DNA of 64,000 nt, from assembly GCA_017887325.1 (NCBI GenBank), contig JAGHIE010000007.1:1-64000 (forward strand), given 5' to 3'. Below are positions 8,008 through 18,508 of this stretch, one piece after another (positions within the stretch are counted from its first letter, which is position 1; each line of letters opens with the position of its first letter). Origin of the DNA: Oscillospiraceae bacterium. GTDB taxonomy: Bacteria > Bacillota > Clostridia > Oscillospirales > Ruminococcaceae. The notes below the pieces were generated by a model. It made no database searches and was not told where the DNA came from. It worked only from the letters and a program-made list of their open reading frames with translations. Position numbers and translations under genes: made by a program.

Positions 8008-8094
8008 GTGAAATTATTTGTTTGTTTTGATTATATTAATAACAACAAATTTGTTTAAACTTACAAATATATTTTTTTGAAAAAATTTTTTAGT

Positions 8095-8186
8095 AAAAAG
8101 TTGCATATTTATATGCAACTTTTTACTGCTTTTACATGTATAGTGAAAGGGTTTTTAAATCTTTTCAAATATTTGATTGCAGGAGG
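8095..8186 (+). promoter_or_regulatory. palindromic leader element, copy 2 (upstream of phage-like structural operon)
   Basis: AAAAAGTTGCAT-atttat-ATGCAACTTTTT (extendable to 15 bp, AGT/ACT), then hairpin TGAAAGG/CTTTTCA and CTGC/GCAG pairing abutting SD GGAGG. Confidence 0.75.
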
Positions 8187-8196
8187 ATAGTTTGAT

Positions 8197-8694
8197 TTGA
8201 ACAAAAAAGAAAGATTGTTTTGTTATCATTACTACACGCTTAGAAATCTAAAAGAAGCGTCAATTAAAGCAGGATATAATCCTAAGATAGCTGAAAATAC
8301 AGCAATTAGATTGATACAGCGTGAAGATATTAGACAGTTGATATTAAGTTTTGATTTGGAAAAAGAAAAGAAACAACTTGAAAAAGATGTTATTGCTATT
8401 CTTAAAAGAATTGCTTTTAATCCTTTACAAGATAGTATTAATTTACTTTTTCTAAATGAAGATGATGCAAAAGAAAAAATTAGCGAGTTGGATTTATTTT
8501 GTGTCAGTGAAATTAAAAAACCAAAAGATGGTTCTTTGGAAATTAAATTTATGGACAGATATAGAGCTTTAGAAAAATTATTGGAAATTTCTAATTCTGA
8601 TAATGGTGCTCAGACTTTACAAAGTTTATATAAAGCTTTAAATAATTCAACTCAAAATACAAGTGCTGAAGGTGCTTTAGATTATGATGTTTAA
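8197..8694 (+). CDS. phage terminase small subunit (XtmA-like)
   Basis: MNKKERLFCYHYYTLRNLKEASIKAGYNPKIAENTAIRLIQREDIRQLI pattern; directly precedes the large subunit; TTG start. Confidence 0.85.
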   Translation: MNKKERLFCYHYYTLRNLKEASIKAGYNPKIAENTAIRLIQREDIRQLILSFDLEKEKKQLEKDVIAILKRIAFNPLQDSINLLFLNEDDAKEKISELDLFCVSEIKKPKDGSLEIKFMDRYRALEKLLEISNSDNGAQTLQSLYKALNNSTQNTSAEGALDYDV

Positions 8695-9931
8695 TTCTTT
8701 TTCACCCAAACAAAAATTGGTTTTAAATTGGTGGTGTAAAGACAGTCCATATAATTTATATGATGCTATTATTTGTGATGGTGCTGTTAGAAGTGGAAAG
8801 ACTTTGTGTATGTCTTTATCATTTTGTCTTTGGGCTAGTGCTAATTTTCAGAATAGTTCATTTGCTCTTTGTGGAAAAACGATAACTTCTTTGAGAAGAA
8901 ATTTAGTTACTCCTATGCTCAATTTGCTAAGAAATTTAGGATATAGTTGTGAAGAAAAAATTTCAAGAGGTTATATTGATATTTCTTATTTGGATATTAC
9001 AAATAGATTCTATCTGTTTGGAGGAAATGATGAATCTTCTGCTTCTAAAATTCAAGGGGTTACTTTAGCAGGTGTTTTATTTGATGAAGTTGCTTTGATG
9101 CCTAGAAGCTTTGTAGAACAAGCATTAGCTAGATGTTCTGTAAATGGTTCTAAATTTTGGTTTAACTGTAATCCTGAAAATCCTTATCATTGGTTTTATC
9201 TTGAATGGATAAAAAAGTCAAAACAAAAAAATGCTCTATATTTACATTTTTTAATGAAGGATAATCCATCTTTATCTAAAAAAATTATAAAAAGATATGA
9301 GAATATGTATTCCGGTGCTTTTTATGACAGATTTATTTTAGGAAAATGGGTTAGACCAACTGGTCTTGTTTATCCTATGTTTGATTATGATAAACATACA
9401 TTTGATAAAGATTTAGGTTTTTCTAATTATTATGTTTCGTGCGATTATGGAACTGTTAATCCTACTTCCATGGGACTTTGGGGTTTTAATAATAATATTT
9501 GGTATAGAATTAAAGAGTTTTATTATAACTCAAGGGTTGAAGGTTCTCAAAAAACTGATGAAGAATATTATCAATGTTTGGAAGATTTGGTAGGTGACTT
9601 GGATATTAACGCTGTGATTGTTGATCCATCTGCTGCTAGTTTTATTGAGTGTATTAGAAGACACAATAAATTTACTGTTATTCCAGCTCAGAATGATGTT
9701 ATTGGGGGAATAAGAAAAGTAAGTGAAAAATTGAAAAGTAATCAGATCAAGATTAATAAGTCTTGTAAAGATTCTATCAGAGAGTTCGGTATTTATGCTT
9801 GGGAAGATAATACAGGAAAAGATATTCCTAAAAAAGAAAATGACCATGCCATGGACGATATTAGGTATTTTATAAGTACGGTTGTATTTGATAATAGTTG
9901 TGACTTTTTTGTTCTAAATGTGGATAGGTAA
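8684..9931 (+). CDS. phage terminase large subunit (XtmB-like)
   Basis: Walker A GAVRSGKT, Walker B-like GVLFDEVAL, nuclease motifs SCDYGTVNPT, VDPSAASF, NDHAMDDIRY intact. Confidence 0.95.
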   Translation: MMFNSFSPKQKLVLNWWCKDSPYNLYDAIICDGAVRSGKTLCMSLSFCLWASANFQNSSFALCGKTITSLRRNLVTPMLNLLRNLGYSCEEKISRGYIDISYLDITNRFYLFGGNDESSASKIQGVTLAGVLFDEVALMPRSFVEQALARCSVNGSKFWFNCNPENPYHWFYLEWIKKSKQKNALYLHFLMKDNPSLSKKIIKRYENMYSGAFYDRFILGKWVRPTGLVYPMFDYDKHTFDKDLGFSNYYVSCDYGTVNPTSMGLWGFNNNIWYRIKEFYYNSRVEGSQKTDEEYYQCLEDLVGDLDINAVIVDPSAASFIECIRRHNKFTVIPAQNDVIGGIRKVSEKLKSNQIKINKSCKDSIREFGIYAWEDNTGKDIPKKENDHAMDDIRYFISTVVFDNSCDFFVLNVDR

Positions 9932-9956
9932 AAAAAGTTTATTGGAGGTGTGAACA

Positions 9957-11099
9957 CTGGCTTTATTCAAAAGAAAAAAACAATCAAATAATAATATTAT
10001 TCAACTGGATAGAAGTTCTAAAAATATTTTTTCTAATCTGAATAATTATATTCCTCTATCAAAACCTGAATATTCTTTATATGAAAGTATTAGAGAGGGA
10101 GTTCCTATTGTAGATTCTGCAATACTTAAAATTGTAAGATTAGTTGGTGGTTTTGAAGTTGATGTAAAAAATAAAAAAGCTAAAACAGAACTTGATTTCT
10201 TTATGAAAAATGTAAATGTAGGTGGGATTAATAGAGGAATAGAGTGTTTTATTGCTAATTATTTAGATGATTTATTGATGTATGGGAATGCCATTGGAGA
10301 AATTGTTTTAGAAAAAGGAAATAATATTGTTGGATTATTTAATGCAGATGTAAAAAATATTAGTGTTAAACCAACAGAGAAAAATCCTTTGGAAGTAGAT
10401 TTTTTTATTAATTCGAATGGGGTAATAAATAGCAAAGTAAAGAATAAAAACTTAATATTATTTACTGCTTTAAATCCTAAGTCATCTGAATATACTGGGG
10501 TATCTATTTTAAATAGTTTACCTTTTGTTAGTAAAATTTTGCTTCAAATTTATAATTCTATAGGAACTAATTTTGAGCGAATAGGGAATGTTAGATATGC
10601 AGTTACATATAAACCATCTAATGATGCTATGGATAAGGTTTATGCAAAAGAAAGAGCTTCTCTTATTGCTAAAGAATGGTCTGATGGAATGAAAGCTTTA
10701 TCTCAAGGTTGTGTTAAGGACTTTGTTACTGTTGGAGATGTCGATATAAAGGTAATTGGTGCTGATAATCAAATTATTGATACACAAGTTCCTGTTAGAC
10801 AAATGTTAGAGCAAATTGTTGCCAAAATTGGTATTCCACCTTTTTTATTGGGGTTATCTTGGTCAACAACCGAAAGAATGAGTAAACAACAAGCAGACTT
10901 ATTGACTACTGAATTGGAATTTTATAGAAGAATTATTTCTCCAGTTATTTTAAAGGTTGCTAGGACTTTTTTAAGACTTAATGGTTATAGTGATGAACCT
11001 ATTATAAAATGGAATACCATCAATTTAAAAGACGAAGTAGAACAAGCAACAGCTTTATTTTATAATGCTAAAGCTGAAAGTTTAAAAAAACAAAATTAG
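9957..11099 (+). CDS. phage portal protein (XkdE-like), predicted CTG start
   Basis: Reading frame extends upstream of the ATG at 10203 (LALFKRKKQSNNNIIQLDRSSKNIFSNLNNYIPLSKPEYSLYESIREGVPIVDSAILKIVRLVGGFEV); in-frame TGA at 9951; SD GGAGGTG 9944-9950; C-terminal portal motifs (KIGIPPFLLGLSWSTTERMSKQQADLL). Confidence 0.88.
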   Translation: MALFKRKKQSNNNIIQLDRSSKNIFSNLNNYIPLSKPEYSLYESIREGVPIVDSAILKIVRLVGGFEVDVKNKKAKTELDFFMKNVNVGGINRGIECFIANYLDDLLMYGNAIGEIVLEKGNNIVGLFNADVKNISVKPTEKNPLEVDFFINSNGVINSKVKNKNLILFTALNPKSSEYTGVSILNSLPFVSKILLQIYNSIGTNFERIGNVRYAVTYKPSNDAMDKVYAKERASLIAKEWSDGMKALSQGCVKDFVTVGDVDIKVIGADNQIIDTQVPVRQMLEQIVAKIGIPPFLLGLSWSTTERMSKQQADLLTTELEFYRRIISPVILKVARTFLRLNGYSDEPIIKWNTINLKDEVEQATALFYNAKAESLKKQN

Positions 11100-11111
11100 A
11101 AAGGAGTATTG

Positions 11112-12056
11112 ATGTTGAATAATATTGATAACGATTTATTAGATGATTTAAAACTTATAAATCAATACACTCGCAGAGAATTATCTTTAGACGAGGTTTA
11201 TATTTTTAATGTTATTTTATGTGATAACGAAGTAGATAGAGATTATGAAGCTTTTTCGCTAAATTCTTTAAACAAATTAGCAGAGTTGTTTTTAGGAAAA
11301 ACAGGTATATTTGATCATAATCCTAAAGGAAGTAATCAAACAGCTAGAATTTTTGATACTCAAGTTATTACAGATAATTCTAAAGTTACAAAATATGGAC
11401 AAGCTTATTCATACATAAAAGCTAAAGCATATATGATTAAATCCGATAAAAACAAAGATTTAATTTTAGACATTGATGCAGGAATTAAAAAAGAAGTTAG
11501 TGTTGGTTGTAGCGTAAAAGATAAAATTTGTTCTATTTGTGGTACTAATTTAAAAAATGATTTTTGCGAACATAATTTAGGTGAGTATTATGACGGTAAA
11601 CTATGCTTTGTAATTTTAGATAATCCTACTGATGCTTATGAATGGTCATTTGTAGCTGTTCCTGCTCAAATTAATGCTGGAGTTACAAAATCTTTTAGCA
11701 ATGATTTTTCTGATATAGATACTATTTTAAAAACTAGTAAAAATTCTATAACTCTATCACGAAAAGAAATAGATATTGTTGTAAATAAATTAAATGAATA
11801 TAAAAAATTAGCTTTAAATGGTGAAATTTATAAAAATGAAATTAAAAAAGATATTATATCTTCACTTTATTTAAGTGATATGAATTTAGATAGTAAAATT
11901 TTTAGTAATATTTGTGACAAGCTATCTATTGATGAATTAAAAGAACTGAAAAAATTTTTTGAAAAACAAGTTGTAGAAAAAAATTTAATTAGTAATTCTC
12001 AGCTAGTTAATAAAAAAGAAAGTAATAATAATAAAAATTTTGATTTTAAAATTTAA
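11112..12056 (+). CDS. prohead protease/scaffold-like protein (XkdF-like)
   Basis: LGKTGIFDHNP and KKEVSVGCSV (His/Ser motifs), CxxC/CxH cluster CSICGTNLKNDFCEH, WSFVAVPAQ; position between portal and capsid; helical lysine-rich C-terminus. Confidence 0.8.
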   Translation: MLNNIDNDLLDDLKLINQYTRRELSLDEVYIFNVILCDNEVDRDYEAFSLNSLNKLAELFLGKTGIFDHNPKGSNQTARIFDTQVITDNSKVTKYGQAYSYIKAKAYMIKSDKNKDLILDIDAGIKKEVSVGCSVKDKICSICGTNLKNDFCEHNLGEYYDGKLCFVILDNPTDAYEWSFVAVPAQINAGVTKSFSNDFSDIDTILKTSKNSITLSRKEIDIVVNKLNEYKKLALNGEIYKNEIKKDIISSLYLSDMNLDSKIFSNICDKLSIDELKELKKFFEKQVVEKNLISNSQLVNKKESNNNKNFDFKI

Positions 12057-12073
12057 GAAAGGTTTGGTGTTTT

Positions 12074-12415
12074 ATGAGTATATGTGTTAATTCTATTGGG
12101 GAAGTTACTATATCTTTAAAAAAAGAGGGAAATGTTAACGTTGGCGATTTAGTTATGATGAGTTCATCAAATCAAACTGCAAAAGTTGCTGATAATGATG
12201 TTGATCCTATTGGTGTTTGTGTTTCTAAAAATGGAGATTACATTGGAGTAATGATTAGTGGTGGTGTCACTTTAAATTGTGATGGTGGACTAACAACAGG
12301 GTTTCACCCTATAAAAGTTCAAACAGGCAATAAAATTACTGCGGGTGAAAGTGGTAAAACTAGATTAATTATTGATGTTAATACAACTGCAAAAACTGCA
12401 CAAGTTATTCTTTAA
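12074..12415 (+). CDS. capsid decoration-like protein (DUF2190-like)
   Basis: 113-aa beta-rich protein (VNVGDLVMMSSSNQTAKVADNDVDPIGVCVS) directly upstream of the capsid gene. Confidence 0.6.
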   Translation: MSICVNSIGEVTISLKKEGNVNVGDLVMMSSSNQTAKVADNDVDPIGVCVSKNGDYIGVMISGGVTLNCDGGLTTGFHPIKVQTGNKITAGESGKTRLIIDVNTTAKTAQVIL

Positions 12416-12438
12416 TTTGAAAAGGAGATGTTTATAAT

Positions 12439-13449
12439 ATGAGATTTGATAATTTAAATTTAGAAAAAGGTATGTATTCTATTAGTGGGAAAGCTTTTAC
12501 TTCTGTTTTAGAAGAATTAGACCCTACAGAAAATTATATTGGTACTAAATTAGAAGGTTTAGATGCTTTTGAAAGACAATTAAAAAGATTTGACATTAAA
12601 GTTTCTGGAAGTAAATCAGACTGTGTAGAAAAATTCTTTAGTACTTCTACTTCTGCAACTTTATTTCCAGAATATGTAAGACGAGCTGTTATTAGTGGTA
12701 TTGGCGAAAGTGAAATTTTAAATAACATTATTGCTAGTAAAACTTACATAAATTCATTAGATTACCGTTCTATTACTTCTAATCCTTCTGAAGATGATAA
12801 GTCTTTAAAAGTTGTAAACGAGGGTGCTGGAATTCCTACTACTACTATTAAAACTCAAGAAAATTTAGTTAAGCTAAATAAAAGGGGCCGTATGTTAGTG
12901 GCTTCATATGAAGCTATTAAATTTCAACGTTTAGATTTATTTACTGTTGCTTTAAAACAAATTGGTGCGACTATTGCTAAACAACAATTACAAGATGCTA
13001 TTAATGTGTTGATTAATGGTGATAGTAATAATAATAAAGCTGAAGAAATTGAGTTAGGTGGAGAAGGTTTTCAATATTCAGATTTAGTTAATCTTTGGAG
13101 TAAATTTGAAGATTTTGAGTTAAATACTTTACTTGCTAATAATGACACTATTGTAAAAATGTTGTCTTTAACAGAATTTAAAGATCCTGTTACAGGACTT
13201 AATTTCCAAAACACAGGTAAGTTAGCTACTCCAATTGGTGCTAATTTATTTAAAACTAATGCTGTGCCTAAAGATAGAATTATTGCTTTGGATAAAAATT
13301 GTGCTTTAGAAATGGTTTGTGCAGGTGATGTGAGCATTGAGTATGATAAATTAATTGATAGACAATTAGAGCGAGCTGCTATTACTTCTACTGCAGGTTT
13401 TGCAAAAATATTTAATGATGCAACAAAAGTTTTAAAAACAGCAGAATAA
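12439..13449 (+). CDS. phage major capsid protein (XkdG-like)
   Basis: 336 aa; FSTSTSATLFPEYVRRAVISGI, LVKLNKRGRMLVASYEAIKFQRLDLF; location after protease/decoration. Confidence 0.85.
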   Translation: MRFDNLNLEKGMYSISGKAFTSVLEELDPTENYIGTKLEGLDAFERQLKRFDIKVSGSKSDCVEKFFSTSTSATLFPEYVRRAVISGIGESEILNNIIASKTYINSLDYRSITSNPSEDDKSLKVVNEGAGIPTTTIKTQENLVKLNKRGRMLVASYEAIKFQRLDLFTVALKQIGATIAKQQLQDAINVLINGDSNNNKAEEIELGGEGFQYSDLVNLWSKFEDFELNTLLANNDTIVKMLSLTEFKDPVTGLNFQNTGKLATPIGANLFKTNAVPKDRIIALDKNCALEMVCAGDVSIEYDKLIDRQLERAAITSTAGFAKIFNDATKVLKTAE

Positions 13450-13501
13450 TATTACCTACTTCTTAAAAAGAAGTAGGTAAATAAACTTAGAAAGGACAAA
13501 T

Positions 13502-13858
13502 ATGGATATTTTTAAAATACAATCTGCTTTTATGGAAATAAGTGGATTAAGTGAACAAGAGTGTGCTAATTATTTAAATCTTTTTAAAACAGCTGACATT
13601 CAGATAAGTAAAAAAATTAAAAAAGGTATTGATATTAATCAAAATGAACCTTTATTAGTAGAGGTAGCAGGTGCTATTGCGTATTATATGTATTGTTTAA
13701 TGCAAAGTAAAAAAATGGCGAATGTAAGTGTTTTAGATGTGAAAATAGAACTCGATAAAAATATTTCTTTAAATAGTGCTAAAAAATATCGTGATGAATT
13801 ATTACTATTAGCTAGTGATATTTTAGTTGATGAAAATTTTGATTTTATTTCAACTTAA
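13502..13858 (+). CDS. putative head-tail connector protein
   Basis: 118 aa, position equivalent to xkdH region; no clear motif. Confidence 0.45.
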   Translation: MDIFKIQSAFMEISGLSEQECANYLNLFKTADIQISKKIKKGIDINQNEPLLVEVAGAIAYYMYCLMQSKKMANVSVLDVKIELDKNISLNSAKKYRDELLLLASDILVDENFDFIST

Positions 13859-13869
13859 AGGAGTTTGAT

Positions 13870-14196
13870 ATGAAATATAATGAGATTTTAAATTGTTTTT
13901 TTGAAAATTACGGATCTAATGTAGTTGATTATAAAACAAATAAATGTATTAAAGGGGTTATTGCACCTGTAAAAGATTTAAGTTTAAAATATAATGATTT
14001 ATCATTTAATGATTTAGGATTTATGCCTAAGACTGAGTGGATTTTGATTAGTCAGTTAGATGATGAAATTATAAAAGTTGATAACTGTGTAATTATTGAT
14101 AATAAACTTATGAAAATTATTAATTGTGATAATTATTTATTGGCTGACAAACCTTTTTATAAAAGAGCTTTTTTATATCAGATAAGGGAGTTGTAA
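13870..14196 (+). CDS. putative head-completion/connector protein
   Basis: 108 aa, position only. Confidence 0.4.
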   Translation: MKYNEILNCFFENYGSNVVDYKTNKCIKGVIAPVKDLSLKYNDLSFNDLGFMPKTEWILISQLDDEIIKVDNCVIIDNKLMKIINCDNYLLADKPFYKRAFLYQIREL

Positions 14197-14199
14197 AAT

Positions 14200-14694
14200 T
14201 TGATAAATTGCATGAGTGTTTCTGAGATAAAAAAAGAGATTTATGATTTGATGAAGTCTAAATTTTCTGAATTTATTATAATTGATGAATTTAATAAAAA
14301 TCAATTTTTTGGAATATGTAAAAATAATTATATTTGTATTAAATTAAAAGAAATTAAAACTGATAATATTTGTTTTCAAGATTATTTAGATAAAGGAGTT
14401 TTAAAAGAAAACTCTTCTCAGATTTTTGGACAAAAGGCAAATATAAAATTTGAATTTTTAATATATAACAAATTAAGTGATGATATAAATTTATCAGATT
14501 TATTTTTAGAAATTTATAATGTTTTATCAAGTTATGATGATGTTTCTTTTAATCACTTTTCTTTTTCTAAGACAGAATATATAGAAAATATTCAAGGCTT
14601 TTGTACTAGTCTTTTTGTTGATTGTGAAACCATTATTACTGCTGTTAATCAAAGTGAAAATATTTCTGATATCGTTGTGTCATATAAAAAGTAA
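14200..14694 (+). CDS. putative tail terminator/completion protein (XkdJ position)
   Basis: 164 aa, directly precedes sheath; position-based. Confidence 0.45.
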   Translation: MINCMSVSEIKKEIYDLMKSKFSEFIIIDEFNKNQFFGICKNNYICIKLKEIKTDNICFQDYLDKGVLKENSSQIFGQKANIKFEFLIYNKLSDDINLSDLFLEIYNVLSSYDDVSFNHFSFSKTEYIENIQGFCTSLFVDCETIITAVNQSENISDIVVSYKK

Positions 14695-14705
14695 GGGGTG
14701 ATTAT

Positions 14706-15743
14706 ATGGATAATTTTAGGTCTGGGGTTTATACATCGTTTAATATAAATCAAATTTATTCTGATTATAAAAACAGAGAAATTGGACTTATTGCTGTTTG
14801 CAATAAACAAGATTTGATTAATAATCACATTGTTGTAAATTCGTTAGCAAAGGCAAAAGAAGTTTTTGGAGAGGCAAGTGATGAAAACGAAGTAATGTGT
14901 TTATTAACAGCTATTTTTATGAATGTAAATACTGTGGTAAATGTTGTACCTATAGCTAGTTCTGATACACAAAACTATAAAAATGCGTTAGATATAATTC
15001 TTCAAAAAGATTCATATATTTTATGTTTTGGTAGTATTAATAACGATTTTTTAGAATATTTAAAATTAAAATTAAATGAATATGAAAAAATTGGGAAAGA
15101 AAAAATTGCAATAGTTTCCTCAAGTGAGGTTGAAGATGCTAAAGCTAAAGCTAAAATAAATGATAAAAGAATTTTAGTATCTTTTCCAAAAATTACTTTA
15201 AAAGATAGCAATATAAATTTATCAGGTGCTATTTTATCTAGTTTAATTAGTAAAGTCAAAAACATAACTTTAAATTTAAGCAATTGTGATATTTTACCAG
15301 ATTTTAGATTAACTCAAAATACTGATGATAATCAAATAAGTGAGTTATTAAAATCAGGTGTTTGTGTTTTTGAAAATCAAACTAATATTATTAAATTAAT
15401 TAGAGCAATTACTACTAGTACTTTAGACGAAGAAGATAATGAAGATTTTACATATAGAAATTTATCAACAGTTTTAATTATTGATACTGTAATTCCAGCT
15501 ATAAGAGAAATTTTAAAAAATAAATTATTAAATGCTAACAATAATTCAATTACAATAAATTCGGTTATGGCTTTGATTATTTCTAAATTAGATTATTTTG
15601 TTGATATTAATTATATTTCTTCATATAAAAAGCCTAATATATATGTTGGTGAAGATGATCAGAGTGTTTGTTTTGTTGAGTTAAGTTTTACTATAGTTCA
15701 AGGAGTTTATCAAGTGTATTTGAATGTGGAAGTAAATGTTTAG
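14706..15743 (+). CDS. contractile tail sheath protein (XkdK-like)
   Basis: FRSGVYTSFNI...REIGLIAVCNK N-terminal sheath pattern; YVGEDDQSVCFVELSFTIVQGVYQVYLNVEVNV C-terminal beta handshake-like end. Confidence 0.85.
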   Translation: MDNFRSGVYTSFNINQIYSDYKNREIGLIAVCNKQDLINNHIVVNSLAKAKEVFGEASDENEVMCLLTAIFMNVNTVVNVVPIASSDTQNYKNALDIILQKDSYILCFGSINNDFLEYLKLKLNEYEKIGKEKIAIVSSSEVEDAKAKAKINDKRILVSFPKITLKDSNINLSGAILSSLISKVKNITLNLSNCDILPDFRLTQNTDDNQISELLKSGVCVFENQTNIIKLIRAITTSTLDEEDNEDFTYRNLSTVLIIDTVIPAIREILKNKLLNANNNSITINSVMALIISKLDYFVDINYISSYKKPNIYVGEDDQSVCFVELSFTIVQGVYQVYLNVEVNV

Positions 15744-15751
15744 AAGGAGGT

Positions 15752-16138
15752 ATGTTTTTGTTTAAGATACCAACGGGAAAAGATATATATATAGAAGTTG
15801 ATGGTAATAGAGTTGCAGTTGTACAAAGCTATGTTTGTAAGACTAAAAAAGAGAACACGCATATAAGAGCTTTTGGTTATATTAATAATGTTGCATGTAT
15901 ACCATCTGGAGTGACATATAAAATAGAATTATCAAAAATTATTCCAATTGGAATAAATGAAAATCAAGTTATAGATTTTTATGATTTAAGCAATTTTTCA
16001 TTAGTGATTATTAAACCTGATTGCCAAATAATTTATTCAGGTTGTGAATGGGAAGATATCAGTGAAATATCAGATATTAATTCTCCTTGTATTGAAAAAA
16101 TTACTCTTGTTGCCAACAAAAGATTGGTTGTAAAGTAG
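15752..16138 (+). CDS. tail tube protein (XkdM-like)
   Basis: 128 aa beta-rich protein directly after sheath (syntenic with xkdM). Confidence 0.7.
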   Translation: MFLFKIPTGKDIYIEVDGNRVAVVQSYVCKTKKENTHIRAFGYINNVACIPSGVTYKIELSKIIPIGINENQVIDFYDLSNFSLVIIKPDCQIIYSGCEWEDISEISDINSPCIEKITLVANKRLVVK

Positions 16139-16146
16139 GAGGGGAC

Positions 16147-16455
16147 ATGAAGCTATTAGAAAAACAAGTTGAAATTAAAGAATTATCTGCTTTAGAAGTA
16201 TTAGAATGCTCTAAAATGGCAGATAGTTTGAAATTAGAGCTAAAAAAAGAAGATTTTAATGAAGAATTGACTGATATATTATGTGAAAATGGAGCTTTAG
16301 CATTTATGTGTGTTTACCATGAAAATAATAGATTATTTTTGTCACCTAAAGATGCTTTAGAAAAATTAAAATTGAGTCAATTAGTTGAAATATATGATTA
16401 TTATCAGGCTGTTTTTATAGATAAGGTGGAGTGTTGTTTGAATGAAAATTTTTAA
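16147..16455 (+). CDS. tail assembly chaperone-like protein (XkdN-like)
   Basis: 102 aa, helical, position after tube; overlaps the next ORF by 14 nt. Confidence 0.6.
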   Translation: MKLLEKQVEIKELSALEVLECSKMADSLKLELKKEDFNEELTDILCENGALAFMCVYHENNRLFLSPKDALEKLKLSQLVEIYDYYQAVFIDKVECCLNENF

Positions 16456-16672
16456 AGATTATCTATTAAAAAATAATAGTAGTAGATTGGATAACAATAT
16501 AAAGTTTGATTTTAATAAAAATTCAAATGATATTTTATCTGTAAAAGTAACAGATGAGTTTCAACAGGTTGAGTCAGTAAATATAAATAATTTTAATAAA
16601 GATAATTTAGAAGAATATGAACGCTTAGAAGAATATGAGAGAAGAAGATCTATTTTATCTTTAGAGTTATAA
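16442..16672 (+). CDS. 76-aa protein of unknown function at the tape-measure position
   Basis: Small charged ORF between chaperone-like and LysM genes; translationally coupled overlap with upstream gene. Confidence 0.6.
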   Translation: MKIFKDYLLKNNSSRLDNNIKFDFNKNSNDILSVKVTDEFQQVESVNINNFNKDNLEEYERLEEYERRRSILSLEL

Positions 16673-16686
16673 AAAGGAGGAATTTT

Positions 16687-17205
16687 TTGTTTTCTATTTT
16701 AAAATTTAAAGACTATCAATTTAAATTTAATCCTGAAAAATTTTCTATTTCTCAAAAAAGACAATTAAAATTATTTGCTTGTCCTAATTTTGACGTACAA
16801 ATTCAAGATTTAGGATTTATGCCAAGAGTTATTACTGGAGAAGGAATTCTTGTTGGTGATGACTTGATGAAAGAATTTGAGAAAATTTCTAATTTACATA
16901 ATCAAGAGAATAGTGGATTACTGTATTTACCTAATTTATCTCCTTTTTATTGCTATTTTAATGATTTACAAATTATAGGACAAGCTGGTGAAATGGTATT
17001 GAGATATAAATTTGAATTTATAGAAGATGCTCCTAAAAATAGTAGAAATATAAAATCTGTAAAATCATACTATATTGTTAGAAAAGGCGAAACATTGGTA
17101 GAAATTGCAAGTAAAAATAATATTGCTTTGGACAAATTAAAGCAATTAAATCCATCATATAATAATCTAACTTTAAAAGAAGGGGATATTATATGGTTAA
17201 GTTAG
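16687..17205 (+). CDS. LysM-domain baseplate protein (XkdP-like)
   Basis: C-terminal LysM YYIVRKGETLVEIASKNNIALDKLKQLNPSYNNLTLKEGDIIWLS. Confidence 0.88.
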   Translation: MFSILKFKDYQFKFNPEKFSISQKRQLKLFACPNFDVQIQDLGFMPRVITGEGILVGDDLMKEFEKISNLHNQENSGLLYLPNLSPFYCYFNDLQIIGQAGEMVLRYKFEFIEDAPKNSRNIKSVKSYYIVRKGETLVEIASKNNIALDKLKQLNPSYNNLTLKEGDIIWLS

Positions 17206-18152
17206 ATATTGAGGCTTTATCTAATAAAAATGAAAAAATATCTTTAGACAAAGTTGTGGATTTCTCTTTTCAAAGTGACAGATTTTCTCCAGCAGATACA
17301 GTTAATTTAACTGTTTTGGACAATATAAAAAATAAAAAAATAACAAAAATATCAATAGGATTAAATAATATTATGATTTTTGATGGGATAGTCGATGTGC
17401 AAAAATCAACAATGAATAAAGATGGAATTTTTTCTATATTTATTTGCAGATCTCGTCCATGTTTGATGTTAGACAATGAAATAAAGCCTACTGTTTATAA
17501 TAATTTATCTGCTGTAGATATGTTAAAAGAAAACGCACTATCTTTTGGTGTTAGTGCTTACAAAATACCCTATAATTGTACGCTCAATAGGATTATAGCA
17601 AAAAAGGGGATTTCTAGGTGGGAGTTTATAAATTTATTTTGTAAAAAAGCTTTTGGAAAAACACCATTTATAGCTAGAGATTACACTTTATCACTTGAAC
17701 CAACAAGTAATGTTAATCATTATTTTTCTAATAATAACGGAATTTCTTTTTTTGAGGCTTCTGTTTTAGAAGATAGATATACAATGATTTCTAAATTGTA
17801 TGTAAAAACTGGTGAAAATGATTTTGGTGCAGAATATAACGGAATTATTAATAATAATATTGCTAAAGATTTGGGCATAAAAAGAGAAAGATATTATAAT
17901 CCAACTACTGAGTGGTTAGATGATATAAAGCTTAGTGCGAAAAATGTTATGAGAGAACACCAGATTAATTATAGAGAGATAGAAATCAAGGTATTAGGTA
18001 TAAATGATTTTAAAGTTGGTGATTTAGCTCGAATTGATAGTGATATAGGTACTTATCAAAATTTATATATATCTCAAGTTAAAATTATGTGTAATGACAA
18101 TGGATATTATACTAGATTGAGGTTATGGGATAGAGGTGTAGTTGTTGAATAA
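17193..18152 (+). CDS. baseplate hub protein (XkdQ / late control D-like)
   Basis: 319 aa; position after LysM protein; GISRWEFINLFCKKAFG hub-like segment. Confidence 0.75.
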   Translation: MVKLDIEALSNKNEKISLDKVVDFSFQSDRFSPADTVNLTVLDNIKNKKITKISIGLNNIMIFDGIVDVQKSTMNKDGIFSIFICRSRPCLMLDNEIKPTVYNNLSAVDMLKENALSFGVSAYKIPYNCTLNRIIAKKGISRWEFINLFCKKAFGKTPFIARDYTLSLEPTSNVNHYFSNNNGISFFEASVLEDRYTMISKLYVKTGENDFGAEYNGIINNNIAKDLGIKRERYYNPTTEWLDDIKLSAKNVMREHQINYREIEIKVLGINDFKVGDLARIDSDIGTYQNLYISQVKIMCNDNGYYTRLRLWDRGVVVE

Positions 18153-18492
18153 TAAATATTTTAAGAATAATAGTGTAGATATGCCTATTAATTCGATAGT
18201 TACTTCTATAAACAAAAATGTTTTACAAACAAGTGGAGATATAAACTTAAATAATGTAAAAATATTATCATTAAATGGATTTATAACAAAACCAGATTTG
18301 AATGATGAAGTAGTTTTATTACCTTTAAAAAATGGTGATTACATATCTTTAGGAAATGTTTTAAAAGATAATCTTGATGAAGACTGTGAAATGATAATTA
18401 AATCAAAATCGGGTGGATTTTTAAAGTTTTTTAAAGACGGAAGTGTAAGTATGAATGGATTTAGAATAAGCAAAGATGGAGACATTATGTAG
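18142..18492 (+). CDS. baseplate spike-like protein (XkdR/gpV-like)
   Basis: 116 aa with OB-like N-terminus (PDLNDEVVLLPLKNGDYISLGNVL) and C-terminal beta-helix-like SKSGGFLKFFKDGSVSMNGFRISKDGDI. Confidence 0.65.
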   Translation: MLNNKYFKNNSVDMPINSIVTSINKNVLQTSGDINLNNVKILSLNGFITKPDLNDEVVLLPLKNGDYISLGNVLKDNLDEDCEMIIKSKSGGFLKFFKDGSVSMNGFRISKDGDIM

Positions 18493-18508
18493 TTTAAGGA
18501 GTGTATAG

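Follow-up and report, generated by a model that had tools for sequence, protein, structure and literature searches.

A candidate GTA-like particle operon of Oscillospirales with a 76-residue protein in the tape-measure slot

We describe a gene cluster of an Oscillospiraceae bacterium that is probably a vertically inherited particle operon of the gene transfer agent (GTA) type. The particle, which is known from its genes alone, would have a very short contractile tail, and the 76-amino-acid (aa) product of a small ORF (orf76) would be its shrunken tape measure. We hold this reading with moderate confidence.

Organization of the gene cluster

The window, the whole stretch of 64,000 nucleotides that was analysed, contains a complete head-plus-contractile-tail cluster of 12.2 kb (8197-20431, + strand), organized as a single operon-like unit. 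Genes for TerS, TerL, portal, protease-like protein, decoration-like protein and capsid are followed by three connector genes, sheath and tube; after the tube come the chaperone-like gene, orf76, and the LysM/XkdP, hub, XkdR-, gp25-, J- and XkdU-like genes.

8091..8128, +, terminator-like hairpin 5′ of the cluster (sequence analysis)
8197..8694, +, terminase small subunit (Pfam Terminase_2, 1.3e-16)
8684..9931, +, terminase large subunit (Terminase_6N, 4.6e-13; 55-64% identity in relatives)
9955..11099, +, portal (Phage_portal, 5.8e-9; listed ORF from 10203, frame open upstream to about 9955)
11109..12056, +, prohead protease/scaffold-like protein (position; kept in nearly all relatives; no Pfam match)
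12074..12415, +, decoration-like protein (position and conservation)
12439..13449, +, major capsid protein, MCP (Phage_capsid_4, 2.2e-12; 52-70% identity in relatives)
13502-13858, 13870-14196 and 14200-14694, +, three head-tail connector genes (position; order conserved)
14706..15743, +, short tail sheath, 345 aa (PHROG 279, 3e-15; Phage_sheath_1C, 4.8e-5)
15752..16138, +, tail tube, 128 aa (AlphaFold pLDDT 81; Foldseek matches)
16147..16455, +, tail assembly chaperone-like protein, 102 aa (iterated HMM; slippery heptamer analysis)
16442..16672, +, orf76, tape-measure slot, 76 aa, degenerate C-terminal RR motif (position, congener alignment)
16687..17205, +, LysM/XkdP-like hub-associated protein, 172 aa, TTG start (LysM, 5.7e-8; weak DNA_circ_N, 0.003)
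17193..18152, +, baseplate hub, XkdQ position (position; conserved, retained in reduced type D too)
18142..18492, +, baseplate protein, XkdR position (position, conservation)
18509..18871, +, sheath initiator, gp25-like (Pfam Sheath_initiator, 4.7e-5; PHROG 120)
18872..19939, +, baseplate J/gp47-like wedge (Baseplate_J, 7e-41)
19943..20431, +, last tail/baseplate gene, XkdU position (PHROG 521, 9e-5)
20433..20468, -, terminator-like hairpin at the 3′ end of the cluster (sequence analysis)

The AlphaFold model of the tube resembles the tail tubes of phage 812, diffocin and phiCD508 (Foldseek E 4e-5 to 6e-4). The portal was listed as a protein of only 298 aa (10203-11099), and a probable CTG start lies at about 9955 after GGAGGTG. 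ORF callers based on ATG, GTG and TTG trim the portal by about 80 aa (window 9931-10203). If the CTG start is allowed the portal is full length, and therefore nothing in the cluster looks broken. The earlier note on this DNA had described the genes around orf76 as full length and in frame, with no obvious decay, which agrees with our identification of sheath, tube, LysM, sheath initiator and Baseplate J genes, none of them visibly broken.

Pfam and PHROG searches of the cluster from TerS to XkdU detected no integrase or replication genes. No lysis or fibre genes adjoin the cluster, and within it fibre and toxin genes are absent. A set of phage-like genes for structure and packaging that lacks replication and integration genes is a hallmark of GTAs, and the cluster, flanked by housekeeping genes, has this make-up. 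The left flank presumably consists of an NAD(P)H-hydrate repair-like gene and a short ORF, and the right flank of an M23-type peptidase gene and purine genes.

orf76 occupies the tape-measure slot

According to the earlier note, the gap between the chaperone-like and LysM genes holds a single 76-aa ORF and no tape-measure gene. The first statement is correct: orf76 lies at 16442-16672 and no longer frame exists there. It overlaps the chaperone-like ORF by 14 nt, and the tube stop and the LysM start are 548 bp apart. As for the second, a long tape-measure gene is indeed absent, but the slot is occupied, because orf76 encodes a short, conserved protein where a tape measure is expected, with the tail chaperone gene ahead of it and the hub genes behind. 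No tape-measure family of Pfam or PHROG matched orf76, and at 76 aa it does not have the length of a tape measure. Its Pfam matches to LolA and DUF3461 (E about 0.02) were taken as chance.

orf76 aligns with its counterparts in congeners at both ends (E 9e-5), and F4, R68 and R69 are invariant across seven family members. When compared with the C-terminal motif of the wider set of relatives, orf76 ranked second of 190 with a smoothed PSSM, and it was missed by a strict motif HMM, for which reason the rank was not counted as proof. In the window's family, L180 encodes a 77-aa slot form with a strong motif (2.8e-8). As orf76 is matched weakly to the wider motif, its membership rests on the congeners, its position and the L180 bridge, and by this evidence orf76 is a short form of the family slot protein. 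A chaperone-orf76 fusion by frameshifting in the window was rejected, since the sole in-frame heptamer would add 7 residues and no such heptamer occurs in the congeners.

Related loci and their tail types

Relatives were collected with HMMs iterated from the window; most loci come from metagenome assemblies, ORFs were called mechanically and host families are given as codes. No match was obtained when genome contigs were scanned with the sheath as a single sequence, and a profile of the capsid alignment was used instead. This profile retrieved at least 532 relatives from the contigs of GTDB and at least 314 from IMG/VR. Sheath homologues are present in all three congeners and in five other genomes of the family, with the same compact locus order. 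No tape measure was found in related loci, and the distance from tube to LysM is at most 1811 bp in the approximately 110 loci with both genes, with additional loci in agreement. Relatives, which the earlier note had proposed to check, thus also lack a long tape measure at the locus, so that the absence is family-wide and not a recent deletion, the case in which close relatives would have kept a long one.

Loci with sheath, tube, chaperone, slot ORF and full baseplate were classed as type A, and those with tube and baseplate and no sheath as type B. Type C comprises head and connectors, sometimes with tube, and type D has the hub only, sometimes with LysM. Among 66 loci, the window's host family (f1) has 15 of type A and 7 of type D, f14 has 14 of type A, 3 of type C and 1 of type B, f24 has 16 of type B and 9 of type C, and f7 has 1 of type A; loci of types B, C and D branch from within type A. 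Culturable hosts of type A are Flintibacter muris DSM 110149, Pseudoflavonifractor phocaeensis An507 and P. capillosus. The tubes of type A (window) and type B are both predicted to fold as tail tubes, with a mean column identity of 66% in type A versus 31% in type B. Conservation is highest for terminase, portal and capsid, which are retained where the tail is lost. In type C loci (L034, L046, L048, L072 and others), head and connectors are conserved and tail genes are missing at the locus. Baseplate_J was not found in eight type C genomes, and it was absent genome-wide in fourteen genomes of types C and D. Type C is possibly a tailless DNA-packaging head.

Three genomes of 0.7-0.9 Mb carry the protease-like and capsid genes alone (L302, 12745-14798; L303, 4718-7060; L304, 12856-15017). 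That these tiny genomes keep only a capsid shell was rejected, as TerL was found elsewhere on their chromosomes; the element is split and is kept even in strongly reduced genomes. Many relatives, but not the window, encode a protein of about 150 aa (MPSTNKTxNLxLNxW...) 3′ of the baseplate genes, for example in the type B loci L030 (14539-14979) and L055 (16331-16792). This protein may be a fibre or may bind receptors.

The slot protein in sheathed and sheathless loci

In sheathed relatives the slot protein has 72-298 aa and a conserved C-terminal RR motif. A helix-like N-terminal start (MxDYLxxLL) is followed by a variable low-complexity linker and the C-terminus xRDARRYDGGFxLY. The pattern RDARRYDGG occurs in 37 stretches in all of IMG/VR, from which 36 ORFs were recovered. 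In every one of these the motif forms the extreme C-terminus and the ORF precedes the LysM gene of this element; they encode 107-298 aa, apart from one that is truncated at the end of its contig. Sheathless (type B) loci have a translationally coupled micro-ORF of 30-61 aa that retains the motif and little else (ISEIFEQDSRRYSRAL; 29 loci), and longer slot forms occur only alongside a sheath. Apparent slot-chaperone fusions are found in L186 and L031. The slot is seldom vacant; in one lineage, L027 (13207-14127), L291 and L288, sheath and tube are present and neither chaperone nor slot ORF, with a gap of 27 bp in L027. The dN/dS of the slot ORF is 0.27-0.67 versus 0.02-0.17 for the tube, indicating fast evolution that is still constrained.

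In the Oscillospiraceae-type clade, the chaperone gene contains an in-frame slippery A AAA AAA/C (34 loci), and in the same 34 loci the -1 frame adds a conserved stretch of about 100 aa, located immediately before the slot ORF. We consider a programmed -1 frameshift in this tail chaperone gene probable. The extension is zinc-ribbon-like (CPxCR; for example in L037, L045 and L074). The frameshift pair is limited to this clade; the extension is absent in the window's genus, including the chaperone-like gene of the window. In the established phage gene order (lambda G/GT type), the tape measure follows the frameshifting chaperone pair. The slot ORF, which stands directly after this pair, therefore lies in the canonical tape-measure slot.

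These data also bear on a different role of orf76. It is possible, if not the likelier case, that orf76 acts as a small peptide of the hub or of the tube end (plug or chaperone) and that tail length is set by direct contact between baseplate, tube and terminator with no ruler. Sheathless relatives, in which only the C-terminal motif is left, still have a tube that folds as such, and by its position orf76 can be compared to the small protein encoded ahead of LysM in extracellular contractile injection systems. Slot length can change freely in the linker and differs between close relatives (265 aa in L131 and 164 aa in L136, with MCPs 97% identical), and no step near one ring was seen in the slot lengths. 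A strict ruler would be expected to be helical and constant in length. Rapid length change and a low-complexity linker speak against a strict ruler, which makes a plug or hub peptide a serious rival, and the empty slot beside sheath and tube in L027, L291 and L288 argues in the same direction. Assembly without a ruler, as the earlier note had suggested, is plausible in view of these loci and of the quick length change. It is disfavoured by the frameshifting chaperone pair before the slot, which elsewhere serves tape measures, and the restriction of longer slot forms to sheathed loci is a further point against the peptide role.

Inheritance and selection

The capsid is present in 102 of 397 Oscillospirales genomes (54 of 173 genera), nearly always as a single copy and without stops, and in the window's family it was found in 177 of 398 genomes. 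When a tree was built on TerL, portal, protease and capsid for 66 loci, host family had to change three times, the minimum possible, compared to a mean of 31.6 after shuffling. The element tree thus matches host family exactly, which indicates vertical inheritance as in a GTA. MCP, tube and sheath have dN/dS values of 0.01-0.22; together with the host-congruent tree and the single copy, this points to vertical inheritance under purifying selection. The left flank is common to the window and the congener G002, and both flanks are common to G001 and G003. No named phage has a close capsid, the best having about 31% identity over 43% of the query; closer capsid matches were unannotated faecal contigs. 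This vertical pattern is in keeping with domestication as a GTA-like element.

A decaying prophage remnant or a recent deletion would account for the lack of integrase, replication, lysis and fibre genes beside the cluster and for the reduced tails of many relatives. Such decay is very unlikely, since the capsid gene remains open in about 100 distant genomes, MCP, tube and sheath are constrained and the tree follows the hosts. The PBSX-like gene order would also suit a tailocin-like killing particle, which, as PBSX, kills without transferring DNA. We consider this unlikely, because terminase, portal and capsid are the genes that stay after tail loss and the cluster has neither a fibre nor a toxin gene.

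Search for a tape measure in trans

The earlier note had also considered a tape measure supplied in trans. When tape measures were sought by family (PF10145, TIGR01760 and PF20155), this genome was found to encode one, of 1440 aa (G000 C12:21655-25977). It is housed in a complete, separate siphophage-type prophage (G000 C12:8081-38847; L209, L210) with its own tube and tip genes. None of the three families was detected in the congeners G001 and G002, yet the same short-slot cluster is present there. Supply of a tape measure by another prophage is therefore extremely improbable.

A model for the particle and comparison with known systems

In the reading that we prefer, the head, built from terminase, portal and capsid, would pack DNA, and the contractile tail would be a minimal one of sheath, tube and baseplate. 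As the gene of the tape-measure slot, orf76 would have been reduced to two conserved ends with a short, variable stretch in between. Its C-terminal RR helix may anchor it to the LysM/hub complex by binding the hub, and the remainder would lie in the lumen of the first tube rings, where it sets or tolerates no more than a few rings. Textbooks attribute the control of tail length to the length of the tape measure. With 0.15 nm per residue, orf76 would span about 11 nm, presumably two to three rings, until the terminator closes off the tube. Within the family this shrinkage would have gone further, leaving a 30-61 aa peptide where the sheath is gone and nothing where the tail is gone. The very short contractile tail with a 76-aa ruler is, of the three options in the earlier note, the best supported, by the position, the congener-conserved ends and the family length series, with the ruler role itself putative. 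Judging from its genes, the particle may transfer DNA; as a GTA it would carry random pieces of host DNA, and not its own genes, to recipient cells.

The tail gene order (XkdG...XkdU) is like that of PBSX and the skin element of Bacillus subtilis. PBSX carries a large XkdO tape measure and lysis genes, whereas in the window the slot between the XkdN and XkdP positions holds 76 aa, unlike XkdO. Extracellular contractile injection systems (Afp/PVC) share a small ORF before the LysM protein as well as sheath, tube, gp25 and J baseplate. Afp/PVC are without capsid, terminase and portal and keep a large tape measure elsewhere.

The nearest described system is FpGTA I/II of Faecalibacterium, a podovirus-like element of 10.5 kb with ten ORFs, 40-nm heads, no visible tails and a second locus for other parts (PMC12946183). 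Its capsid and portal proteins are represented by RCH50849.1 and RCH50851.1 of F. prausnitzii. It shares with our cluster a phage-derived terminase-portal-capsid operon and the bacterial order; the window cluster adds sheath, tube and J baseplate, FpGTA being compared by description only. GTA-like packaging has been reported in Oscillospiraceae and Ruminococcaceae, including Ruminococcus callidus, also where no operon was found (PMC12946183). Our family is a candidate for such packaging without a known operon in Oscillospiraceae and Ruminococcus. We found no description of this element family in the open-licence literature.

RcGTA is a phage-derived GTA particle with a short tail, as the window particle would be. 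RcGTA has no sheath, and its tape measure is a long helix, a stretch that orf76 does not have: g11 has about 216 residues, 113 of them in a helix, and is accompanied by five tube discs (PMC7296036). On this scale, 76 residues would allow two or three rings.

Implications

Taken over the whole family, we tentatively propose one ancient, vertical GTA-like element of Oscillospirales whose tail was dismantled stepwise, from contractile to sheathless, hub only and none, and whose tape measure, once about 300 residues long, dwindled to a hub-binding peptide of 30 residues. If so, a vestigial ruler, or no ruler at all, would be enough for building a contractile tail. For the lower limit of tail length and the role of the ruler ends the family gives a natural series of about 300 to about 30 residues, tied to sheath presence or loss in otherwise related particles. 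The cluster thus offers a natural test of how tail length is set and of the change from a phage to a host-owned particle, and the family illustrates, in an order of bacteria abundant in the gut, a possible stepwise route from a phage to a head-only device that belongs to the host.
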